From assembly GCA_027450145.1 (NCBI GenBank), contig DAIDKH010000009.1, forward strand, positions 1 through 64,000: a stretch of 64,000 nucleotides of DNA. The letters are read 5' to 3'. Under the pieces are notes generated by a model. The model saw nothing but the letters and a program-made list of their open reading frames with translations. It ran no database searches and was not told where the DNA came from. The stretch comes from Chthonomonadaceae bacterium (GTDB lineage: Bacteria > Armatimonadota > Chthonomonadetes > Chthonomonadales > Chthonomonadaceae). Below are positions 1-3,936 of the stretch, one piece after another; position 1 is the stretch's first letter, and every line of letters starts with the position of its first letter. The position numbers were made by a program, and so were the translations under genes.

Positions 1-77
1 ATTGCGGCGTCATCGTCCACAGTCCATGCGTAAACTACGACGCCGCGTTCTTGCAGGGCATCTACCCGGCTGGCGCT
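1..77 (-). repeat. 77-bp direct repeat, copy 1 (glycerophosphodiesterase gene fragment)
   Basis: This stretch is identical base for base to 3290-3366, which lies inside the intact glycerophosphodiesterase gene. Identity ends abruptly at 77/78. It starts at the window edge, so the true repeat may extend to the left. On the minus strand the fragment encodes the C-terminal WTVDDDAA region of the enzyme. It is directly downstream of the 256-residue gene, whose TAG stop (76-78) straddles the junction. This is what the junction of a tandem duplication of 78-3366 (unit 3289 bp) would look like; an assembly join is the alternative. Confidence 0.9.
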
Positions 78-846
78 ATTTTGCCGGTGTACCGGTCTGC
101 TCGGCTGCCTTCTGCACAGGTTTGTGCTGTACGTCGTACTGGTACTTCGCAGTGGCCATGTAGCTTTGATAGATGTACTCCGGCATATGCGGAAATTTGC
201 CTCTCACTGCTGTAAACAACCTCATCTGCAACTGAGGATGCTTACGTATTTGTTGCAATGCTATTGCGTAGTTCCCTTCGATCAGCACGTTCTGTGGCAA
301 TAACCGATATGCTGTTGCAGCATACTTGCAGGCAAGCCTGGCCTTGTCCATGTTTGGTTGGCTCGGAACATATTCATTCTGGAGCTCAGTACAGGCAGCC
401 AGGTAGGTCATAGCAGCAACACCCCGGTCCGTTTGAAGTTCAACAAACGGCTTTATGTGCTTTTCATCGCCATTATATAGGTCGTCGTCCGCATTAAACA
501 GGTGCCGTGCAAGGTCATACTTCCCCAAATTCACAGCTGCCATGCAGAGTGCTATGTTATCGCCACCGTAAGGGTTTTCCGGTGTCACTAAAGGCAAAAG
601 GTAGTGCAGCGCCTCCCGGTAATGCCCAGTTGCAGTTGAGTATTCCCCCATTTCGATATGAATACTCTGCGTCTCCCACAATCTATATTTATGCAGGTCT
701 TGCATAGTGTCGTAATGAACCTGATCCGCCATCGATGTGATCGTGCGAACGCCGTTCCGCGTTGAGGTTAAGGGCGCCAGGTCTGGATCTTCGCTATGGA
801 CCTGGTTAAGCATTTTCTGGTAGTCACTAGTATTTAGGTTCTTCAA
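76..846 (-). CDS. Hypothetical TPR-like protein, possibly truncated at its C-terminus
   Basis: A 256-residue protein without a signal peptide, not assigned to a known family. Residues about 60-210 read like degenerate tetratricopeptide helices (for example GEYSTATGHYREALHYLLPL and later LACKYAATAYRLLPQNVLIE), suggesting a helical-repeat scaffold; this is inference from pattern only. The start overlaps the stop of the upstream 93-residue gene by 4 bases (ATGA), so the two are probably translationally coupled. The TAG stop is formed across the boundary of the 77-bp repeat: only its T lies outside the repeat. The natural C-terminus may therefore be longer, with this copy cut by a rearrangement. 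Confidence 0.7.
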   Translation of the reverse strand: MKNLNTSDYQKMLNQVHSEDPDLAPLTSTRNGVRTITSMADQVHYDTMQDLHKYRLWETQSIHIEMGEYSTATGHYREALHYLLPLVTPENPYGGDNIALCMAAVNLGKYDLARHLFNADDDLYNGDEKHIKPFVELQTDRGVAAMTYLAACTELQNEYVPSQPNMDKARLACKYAATAYRLLPQNVLIEGNYAIALQQIRKHPQLQMRLFTAVRGKFPHMPEYIYQSYMATAKYQYDVQHKPVQKAAEQTGTPAK

Positions 847-1124
847 TTTACGAATAGCGCGGCGGTACCTATGAATACGGAAGCGTAGTCACCGCCCTTC
901 TTTTCGGCTTGTGCTTCCGCCAGAATAGGGTTGATCTTGCCTTCAATATCTCGAGAAACCTCATTTAGTACAATGGTATACTGCACGCTCCAGCGCGTAT
1001 AGGCATTCGCGTGAGGTCCCATTGAGTTTTGTTCTACGGCCTGTCCATTCGCAATACCGCTCCATCCACAGGCAGTAGAAAAGGCGAGTGCGGCAACAAC
1101 CTTGTGTAAAAATATCCTTTTCAA
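843..1124 (-). CDS. Small secreted protein of unknown function
   Basis: A 93-residue protein beginning MKRIFLHKVVAALAFSTACG, a standard Sec signal peptide with likely cleavage after ANG near residue 27. The mature part is about 65 residues and amphipathic, and ends in a hydrophobic stretch (YASVFIGTAALFVN). No family is recognised. A purine-rich AGGAGGAGC-like ribosome site precedes the ATG. It lies between the large secreted protein gene upstream and the TPR-like gene downstream, with a 4-base overlap to the latter, so the three probably form one secretion-related transcription unit. Confidence 0.65.
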   Translation of the reverse strand: MKRIFLHKVVAALAFSTACGWSGIANGQAVEQNSMGPHANAYTRWSVQYTIVLNEVSRDIEGKINPILAEAQAEKKGGDYASVFIGTAALFVN

Positions 1125-1164
1125 GATTTGCTCCTCCTAATGTAGACTGCCCTCAATGGCACTA

Positions 1165-2871
1165 TTACCAGCCCGTCTGGTTATTCATCCAGGCAAATGT
1201 CCATGTGGGAAATGCGGGGTACGTGGTGCCTGGTGAAATCGACTCAGATGAATTTGAGTCAAGATACCAGCCCGAGCCAGAGACATAAGTAGCCGTGGCG
1301 TTCCAAGTCCAGGTGAGGTAGTTAAGTGGTACCCAACAGGAATTACCCCCGGTTGATGCGCCCGGCGGTCGGTAAAGCATGTAATCGTAGAAACTATCTG
1401 TGTCGCTCTCAGCAACGGCTCCGCCAGGGGGATTCATGAACGGTGCGTCCCAGTTATCCCCCTGACTTCCATCCGGTATCCAGTAGTGTTGGTACGGCAT
1501 GAAGTTATCAAGTCCCTGCATTCCATTGTTCCGGATTGCAACTGTATTGCCGTTGACCGTCGCCGTGCGGTTTGGCGTCCACAATTGAACTAAGCCCCAT
1601 TCGCCAATATCGCCATTGGAAGTCACGAATGCAGCGGGTGTGGTCACTGTGCCATAGAAATCAATGTGGTTGAGCCCTAGTGTGCCACTCACCCGGTCAA
1701 GATCAATATCCTGTCCTTGGTTATTTGCGGTAAAAGACCCGGTTAAGGATTTAAATGCAGGCTGTTGGACTGAGAATTGAAAGCTTTGGAACGAAGTTCC
1801 CGGAAAGCCTGCCGCAGGCAACGCGCCTGAAGGCACAGCAAGGTCACACGAGCAAGTCAATTTGATTGGTTTTGAAAGATTCGGCTTCTTGAAGTAGCAT
1901 TGAAATCCTGACTGGGTAAGATCCGCCTGCTGTAAAGGCTCATACGTTGCCGTTTCGGGTACTTCCGCGTTGCCCATTCCCGTGTTTACAACATAGTTGC
2001 TCAGAACCCAGTTTTTAAATGGACTACCGGCAGCAGGTATCGCCCACTTGTAATTTGGCATTGGCGCAACGGATAGACCACCTGTTACGAGTGAACCGCC
2101 GCACGATTGGCCTATAAGGTATTGGCGGGTCGCCTGCCCGCCAATACCGCCGTTAAGGCTAATGTACAACGGATTTGCTGCGGCAGTGTAACTAACACCG
2201 CCTCCCACAATCACATCGGGGCCCGTATCACTTGCGTTCCTGGCCACCGTGATATTCAAGCTCGGCGAGCACGTTACGCTAAACGAATTACCGGGGTTCT
2301 GTTTTATCTCATACAACGCCCCCAACCCCGGGCCGGAACCTCCGGAGTGAACGTCACCAGTAGCTGGCCCTACCTGAGGGAACCCGAGCCCACAGTCAGC
2401 ACTTTCACCTGTAATCTCGCTAGCGTTATACGAGTAGGGGCTGGCCCATGCAAAGCAGGTCTGCTCAATAACAACCGCTGGAGGGGGTATGTCGCCGGGG
2501 ACAGATGGATCTGGAACAAACGTAAATGTCGCGGTAATCTGGCCGCCTAGAACCAGGCTGCCAGAAGTATGTGGGCTAGTGCAATCGCAAGAGCCGCCGC
2601 CGCCATAGGAGCTTGTGCCGCCGCCAGAGTAGTTCACCGTTGTTGCCTTACCGTTCTCTGTGGTAACTACCGTGCCACCGGTATAGGTTACGACGTAATG
2701 ACCAGCTCGTGCCCTGCTAGCTGAGGCAGCCATTAGAACTACAGACGCGGTAAACCAGACACACATCTTGCAGTAGTGCACGAATTTATTACTATAAACC
2801 GGGGGGGGGGCAGCATCTACAAAGGAAATGATGCCAATGCCAGAATTCCACATGGGTACTGTACGGTTCAT
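1165..2871 (-). CDS. Large secreted protein of unknown function with a C10 tract before its signal peptide
   Basis: About 568 residues. I chose the ATG at 2871 (MNRTVPMW) because AGGAAAGG lies 9 bases upstream; a TTG at 2895 opens the frame without such a site. Residues 19-24 are encoded across a run of ten C, just before a hydrophobic signal segment (MCVWFTASVVLMAASASRAR, about 36-55). The mature chain is rich in G, S, T, N and aromatic residues, typical of extracellular beta-rich proteins. It has a glycine/serine-rich YSGGGTSSYGGGGSCDC stretch and about ten cysteines. No known domain is recognised. The slippery tract close to the start means translation of the whole protein could switch on or off by slippage (inference). 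It is the first gene of the secreted cluster ending at the 77-bp repeat. Confidence 0.7.
   Translation of the reverse strand: MNRTVPMWNSGIGIISFVDAAPPPVYSNKFVHYCKMCVWFTASVVLMAASASRARAGHYVVTYTGGTVVTTENGKATTVNYSGGGTSSYGGGGSCDCTSPHTSGSLVLGGQITATFTFVPDPSVPGDIPPPAVVIEQTCFAWASPYSYNASEITGESADCGLGFPQVGPATGDVHSGGSGPGLGALYEIKQNPGNSFSVTCSPSLNITVARNASDTGPDVIVGGGVSYTAAANPLYISLNGGIGGQATRQYLIGQSCGGSLVTGGLSVAPMPNYKWAIPAAGSPFKNWVLSNYVVNTGMGNAEVPETATYEPLQQADLTQSGFQCYFKKPNLSKPIKLTCSCDLAVPSGALPAAGFPGTSFQSFQFSVQQPAFKSLTGSFTANNQGQDIDLDRVSGTLGLNHIDFYGTVTTPAAFVTSNGDIGEWGLVQLWTPNRTATVNGNTVAIRNNGMQGLDNFMPYQHYWIPDGSQGDNWDAPFMNPPGGAVAESDTDSFYDYMLYRPPGASTGGNSCWVPLNYLTWTWNATATYVSGSGWYLDSNSSESISPGTTYPAFPTWTFAWMNNQTGW
2801..2810. 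repeat. Homopolymer tract (G10 on +, C10 in coding sense)
   Basis: Ten consecutive G on the given strand, read as C10 in the secreted-protein gene (codons Ala-Pro-Pro-Pro). It is between the chosen ATG and the signal peptide. Tracts of this length are slippage-prone in many bacteria, and a gain or loss of one base would shift the frame of the whole mature protein. Confidence 0.9.
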
Positions 2872-2895
2872 ACACGCATTCCTTTCCTGTTTCAA

Positions 2896-3201
2896 CTCAG
2901 ATCACAATCATTTGCACCTCTAGGTGCACGAATATGAATGCAATTTGCATAAATTATTCAACATATGCAAGAGCATATTAACATGGGATGTGTTGAATGT
3001 CAAGCGATTAAGTTACTTAAGCAAGGGAATTATTTACAAACGCCCCCAAAATTGTTCAACTCGTGCTAATATGACGCACAATTTCGCAAAATTATTACCG
3101 GTACTTGCTTAAATTAATTTGCAGTAATTGGAGCGCGCCCGGACGAAGGCATAAGTGCGTACAATGGGGCGCCAGGTGGAGCTGATGACAGTGGCCGCCG
3201 G
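2896..3201. other. AT-rich intergenic region upstream of the secreted-protein cluster
   Basis: About 300 bases with no convincing gene. It is markedly richer in A and T than its flanks, which fits a promoter region for the minus-strand secreted cluster. I see no clear operator, RNA gene or terminator. The short plus-strand open frame inside it has no coding character. Confidence 0.5.
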
Positions 3202-3936
3202 TTAACGAGGCTGCAGGTGCAGGTGTGATACCAGGCGGTCTACACGGTTACTGATAATGCCGTTAACACCTATTTCAATCATATGCTTGATTGCGGCGTC
3301 ATCGTCCACAGTCCATGCGTAAACTACGACGCCGCGTTCTTGCAGGGCATCTACCCGGCTGGCGCTTAAGAGGTGAAACTGCCATGTTACCGCATCGGTG
3401 TCCAAAGACTCTAAGAGGCGATCAAAACCATCGCCTGCAAGTTCGTTGGCCCGTTCACGCCCCAGCGATAGCGAAATTGGCAGATGCGGGTCCACCTGGC
3501 GCAGAATTTTACGGGAATATGGGCTTGCACCGGGCACAAGCTTTTGGCCGGGCGGCAACGCAGAGAGAATCTCTGCTGTCTTCGTCTCGGCACCATCGCC
3601 CTCTACCTTAAAATCTGCCATGACGGCACAACCGCACGAAGCCCAGTCAACAAGCTGTTGCAGGGTGGGTACTCCCTGTCCCGCGCCAAGATCCAGTGAT
3701 GCCAGGTGAGCCGACGTACACGCAGGAATGGAGTGTCTATCGCCATCACGATCGATCACATAGTCGTCGTGCGCCAGCACAGGTACTCCGTCTAATGCAA
3801 TCCGAACGTCACACTCCACCATCGCACAACCAGCCTGCCACGCTGACTGAAACCCCGCCAGAGTATTGGCGGGGAACAAAGCCGGCCATCCCCGGTGACC
3901 TACTGATACGGGCAAATGTGCGGCCAGATTATTCAT
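3202..3936 (-). CDS. Glycerophosphodiester phosphodiesterase
   Basis: Hydrolyses glycerophosphodiesters released from phospholipids to glycerol-3-phosphate and an alcohol. The 244 residues match the usual length of cytoplasmic UgpQ-type enzymes and there is no signal peptide. Visible family motifs: the HRG signature (His14-Arg15), the Asn24-Thr pair, the metal-binding ECDV (Glu41, Asp43), and the second catalytic His56 in LAHDD. The C-terminal half has the YAWTVDDDA and GVNGIISNRVDRL motifs near the barrel end. Its ATG overlaps the stop of the upstream DUF2227-like gene by 4 bases. A 77-base internal segment (3290-3366) is repeated exactly at the left edge of the window. Confidence 0.92.
   Translation of the reverse strand: MNNLAAHLPVSVGHRGWPALFPANTLAGFQSAWQAGCAMVECDVRIALDGVPVLAHDDYVIDRDGDRHSIPACTSAHLASLDLGAGQGVPTLQQLVDWASCGCAVMADFKVEGDGAETKTAEILSALPPGQKLVPGASPYSRKILRQVDPHLPISLSLGRERANELAGDGFDRLLESLDTDAVTWQFHLLSASRVDALQERGVVVYAWTVDDDAAIKHMIEIGVNGIISNRVDRLVSHLHLQPR
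3290..3366 (-). repeat. 77-bp direct repeat, copy 2 (inside the glycerophosphodiesterase gene)
   Basis: Identical to window positions 1-77 (offset 3289). The intact gene continues on both sides here, so this is the parental copy and the left-edge copy is the derived junction. Confidence 0.9.

Follow-up and report, generated by a model that had tools for sequence, protein, structure and literature searches.

The join at positions 77/78 of the window, the whole 64,000-nt stretch of DNA analysed here (C9:1–64000, of a contig that ends at 71,450), is probably a real head-to-tail duplication junction beside a glycerophosphodiester phosphodiesterase (GDPD) gene, and we put the probability of this at roughly 0.7. 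The observations on which this rests are an exact repeat, its position at the contig edge, a 77-nt ceiling on the overlaps of contig ends, an intact natural stop codon, and a tandem copy in a sister genome. The first-pass annotation had offered either a tandem duplication or an assembly join. Of these, duplication fits better, given a diverged tandem copy in the sister genome G001 and a probable microhomology at the join; the truncated protein and the 77-bp repeat length proposed along with it did not stand.

The repeat at the contig edge

Positions 1–77 are identical to 3290–3366 at all 77 nucleotides, in agreement with the first-pass annotation. The spacing is 3289, and both copies are read on the minus strand (Table 1). 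This was the only exact repeat of at least 20 nt in the 64-kb window when direct and inverted repeats were checked, and it sits at the literal first base of the contig. In the genome contigs searched (those other than C140–C168), its 77-mer has two sites only. The ends of most contigs (180 ends; C140–C168, which were read as N, excepted) were compared with sequence elsewhere in the fetched set: ten match another place over exactly 77 nt, a few others over 35–76 nt, and none over more. In the contigs examined, a second copy of the 77-mer was found for 62 of 744,033 interior positions as against eight of the 180 contig ends. A chance repeat was ruled out by the rarity of duplicated 77-mers in the interior and by the lack of any other such repeat in the window. 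A dispersed repeat or insertion sequence at the join was likewise rejected, as the 77-mer has just the two sites.

Since 77 nt is the ceiling of the end overlaps, it is to be read as the K of the assembler and as the minimum identity of the two copies, not as the length of a biological repeat, for which it had first been taken. The assembler used for this genome is not stated, so that K = 77 is an inference, though a strong and almost certain one; the NODE names in the two sister MAGs are in the style of SPAdes, and the contig ends of metaSPAdes and MEGAHIT assemblies are reported to overlap by exactly maxK (PMC10914622). The present repeat resembles those maxK overlaps (COBRA, PMC10914622) in being exact, K nucleotides long and terminal on a contig, but it pairs with the interior of that contig rather than with another contig end. 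A de Bruijn contig starts in this way when 78 can be reached from 3366-type sequence and by no other path. Both a tandem duplication with a lost left flank and a chimeric read at a coverage gap fit this.

Table 1. Features at the left end of the window
Feature	Position	Strand	Remarks
Contig-start 77-mer (graph vertex)	1..77	-	GDPD codons ~191–215 again; probably the start of a leftward second copy
Probable 10-nt microhomology AGCGCCAGCC at the join	68..77	-	Shared by GDPD codons ~190–193 and, approximately, by the sequence 3' of the secreted gene
Secreted helical-repeat (TPR-like) gene, ~349 codons	76..1124	-	Four-copy alignment (this genome, G001 twice, G002 once)
Presumed duplicated unit of 3289 bp, provided that the left copy is whole	78..3366	.	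Proposed from 77/78 read as 3366/78; 77 nt of copy two seen
576-residue secreted protein	1165..2895	-	No Pfam family; relatives in several genera
GDPD, complete, 244 aa	3202..3936	-	PF03009, E 6e-30
Second occurrence of the 77-mer	3290..3366	-	Inside the intact GDPD gene

Gene content of the locus

On the minus strand the order of genes is GDPD, the 576-residue secreted protein and a secreted helical gene; from 78/77 onwards the last part of GDPD follows once more. The PF03009 match of GDPD scores 105.5 bits against a curated cut-off of 23.6. A relative of the 576-residue protein (45%) is present in genome G005, where it too adjoins a secreted gene of similar size. A run of ten Gs in the 5' part of the 576-residue gene (window positions 2801–2810) is slip-prone or an assembly weak spot.

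Alignment of four copies (the one in this genome, two from G001 and one from G002) indicates that the 93- and 256-residue frames, initially described as separate genes, are a single gene of ~349 codons split by a 1-nt deletion near position 870. The predicted structure of the 256-aa part is all helical, with low confidence (pLDDT 60). In all four copies the terminal ...PAK-stop falls in the same alignment column, and the protein encoded here is therefore complete at its C-terminus. The supposed truncation of the 256-residue protein is thus not one, the stop at 76–78 being the natural and conserved end of the gene. In-frame stops are found within sister copies of the ~349-codon gene, with TAC to TAA in both G001 copies (L187:8240–11750), and the DsbA-like gene of the present genome (L104:3303–3875) contains a TGA ahead of its GTPTF motif. 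In these conserved genes such stops look like low-coverage sequencing errors. The k-mer coverage of related MAGs is very low (1.3–1.5), and at values near these sequencing error is as likely as decay.

Probable microhomology at the join

At 77/78 the sequence leaves GDPD, at codon ~191, for the end of the 256-codon frame, whose TAG stop (76–78, minus strand) spans the switch, as the first-pass annotation had described. The orientation of the join is direct, with 3366-type sequence followed by 78, i.e. unit end to unit start. The motif AGCGCCAGCC is present in GDPD, and the 3' flank that the secreted gene would have in unduplicated form can be predicted from relatives, which read TAACGCGAGCC or TAGCCTGAGCC after the corresponding stop. 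Past the stop, relatives read CGCGAGCC or CCTGAGCC and then a strong, terminator-like hairpin, ~13 nt beyond the stop of the secreted gene; in the present genome the sequence there reads CGCCAGCC and then continues as GDPD. This comparison would place the join in short homology, at the foot of the expected hairpin site.

Tandem duplication mediated by microhomology is already well known as a kind of event. For example, in amplification of the E. coli lac region microhomology was present at 40 of 40 sequenced junctions, 16 of them in REP sequences (PMC3161906). The present join is similar to those of the lac system (PMC3161906) in its direct orientation at a probable short homology, the likely presence of a hairpin nearby and the small gene unit involved. 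It differs in being known from assembled sequence, not from reads, and in showing only 77 nt of its second copy. A literature search on the sister samples or on this order found nothing.

Comparison with the sister genomes

A tandem copy of the end of GDPD and the secreted ~349-codon gene exists in the genus. In G001 (contig C69) the order is GDPD, gene copy 1, Uma2, a C-terminal GDPD remnant with stops, gene copy 2, and an 823-residue phosphoesterase-type gene. The Uma2-family gene (L187:9456–10106) lies exactly between the two tandem blocks. The G001 copies are 91% identical overall and 72–100% identical per ungapped 50-nt block, a divergence which argues that they are real and not an assembly echo; the mosaic of block identities suggests gene conversion. 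The blocks match from GDPD codon ~204 to 65–110 nt beyond the stop of the secreted gene.

The join in the present genome enters GDPD at codon ~191, within the codons (~168–244) that are duplicated in G001, and leaves the secreted gene at its stop, at most 110 nt from the end of the G001 unit. The duplication proposed here and that of G001 would thus both involve, head to tail, the GDPD C-terminus and the same secreted gene. The G001 tandem copy (JAJYCW010000042.1, BP9.bin74) differs in having other breakpoints, Uma2 at the join, no 576-residue gene in its tandem copies, and copies that are diverged and mosaic. By a rough estimate, about one random self-join in a thousand would both enter GDPD in the same part and leave at the same gene end. 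In G002, GDPD occurs without the ~349-codon secreted gene beside it; that gene is on another contig, and the GDPD locus bears no trace of duplication.

The left flank and other loops in the assembly

A continuation of the left flank was sought by DNA comparison in the same genome, and no contig carrying it was found among those searched (again those other than C140–C168). On none of these contigs is a left flank joined to 78–154, as a real duplication requires. C140–C168 are 29 contigs of less than 3 kb, amounting by hand sum to 47 kb; a flank so joined would have to lie on one of them or have been lost. On contig C120 of the same genome there is an ortholog of the 823-residue gene; ahead of it lie three further genes and the distal portion of the secreted gene's 3' flank, and the contig breaks off in a run of G. 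C120 probably lies to the left of C9. None of the contigs searched connects the two, and C140–C168 could hold the link; the native flank at 78 would read like TAGCG-AGCCTGAAGAGGCG, towards C120.

Both ends of C9 loop back. At the right end (C9:70519–71450; L010:10520–11451), 76 nt are repeated at a spacing of 856, giving an abrupt direct self-loop around a gene for a 226-residue secreted protein; a search of the relatives revealed no obvious tandem copy of this gene. Contig C115 (C115:1–6692; L109) has identical 77-nt ends and forms a closed loop of 6615 bp, which contains little besides a cas operon (Cas3, Cas5 and two more genes) and an apparent isomerase gene fragment. These two loops are as abrupt as the 77/78 join, and weaken the case for a duplication. 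Contig C94 (L141:1–1200) opens within two diverged secreted ~350-residue genes in tandem (94% across the first 100 nt), which indicates that true tandem copies occur and break this assembly.

Alternative explanations

A duplication is preferred to an assembly artefact because G001 has a diverged tandem copy of the GDPD C-terminus and the secreted gene at the same place, and because the join shows a probable microhomology, as is common in events of this kind. An artefact would require that the flank was lost at a coverage gap beside a strong hairpin and that a chimeric read, joined at AGCGCCAGCC, was left as the only path, looping the contig start into GDPD. The repeat length of exactly K, the abrupt self-loops at the right end of C9 and in C115, the low k-mer coverage of the related MAGs, the hairpin close to the stop in relatives, and the distal native flank on C120 are all consistent with it. 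Nothing, however, would direct a chimera to the very stretch of GDPD of which the sister species has a tandem duplicate, and to the end of the same gene. Its landing point, 3.3 kb off in direct orientation, is not a random place in the metagenome either; in an unamplified metagenome, library chimeras should seldom give a direct join at that distance on the same contig. We therefore regard an artefact as unlikely, though a real contender. Still less credible, to the point of being very improbable, is an excised circle of the 3289-bp unit in some cells. It would give an identical junction, and the same assembly contains the closed C115 loop, but no recombinase or replication gene was recognized in the unit, the main frames of which are the GDPD end, the 576-residue gene and the ~349-codon gene, and the exit of the graph into C9 implies that the unit is also chromosomal.

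If the join is a real duplication junction, the genome, or part of the population, would carry it head to tail, and the contig would start there at a de Bruijn vertex of K = 77. The 3' end of the secreted gene would then run straight into the last part of GDPD, the start of a second copy to the left. Such a join may have arisen through a template switch or an illegitimate joining at AGCGCCAGCC, next to the terminator-like hairpin predicted from relatives. The true left flank, probably in the direction of C120, would have been lost to a coverage gap or would lie on a short contig.

Within the duplication reading, a complete and recent second cluster and a partial or inherited copy are about as likely as each other. 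A full recent tandem duplication of 3289 bp, leaving a whole second 576/349 cluster on the left, is a plausible form of the event to which we would give somewhat less than even odds. It accounts for the join and for the identity of the two 77-nt stretches, and the 576-type gene of G005 has a similar neighbourhood. The tandem copies of G001, however, lack the 576-residue gene, the truncation of the 256-residue protein that such a duplication was predicted to bring about is wrong, and the 77-nt identity is a floor set by K that an older copy under gene conversion could also reach, as the G001 mosaic suggests. More doubtful is an older duplication, from an ancestor shared with G001, in which a later deletion between two AGCG-CAGCC motifs would have brought the GDPD remnant up against gene copy 1. 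The G001 arrangement of gene copy 1, Uma2 spacer, GDPD remnant and gene copy 2 would supply the starting material, a similar motif occurs in the 3' flank of the gene and in GDPD, and gene conversion could restore the identity. This history needs an extra event as well as conversion, and the GDPD locus of G002 retains no sign of it.

Significance

More speculatively, the 3' end of GDPD may be a recurrent rearrangement hotspot in the genus, at which the ~349-codon gene would be repeatedly duplicated in tandem and homogenized, with template switching driven by the hairpin; we consider this doubtful at present. The length of a K-length repeat at a contig edge is technical, yet the join itself may carry biology that is testable with sister genomes. 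If real, the duplication would amount to a limited amplification, specific to its lineage, of an uncharacterized secreted gene in a poorly known bacterial group.
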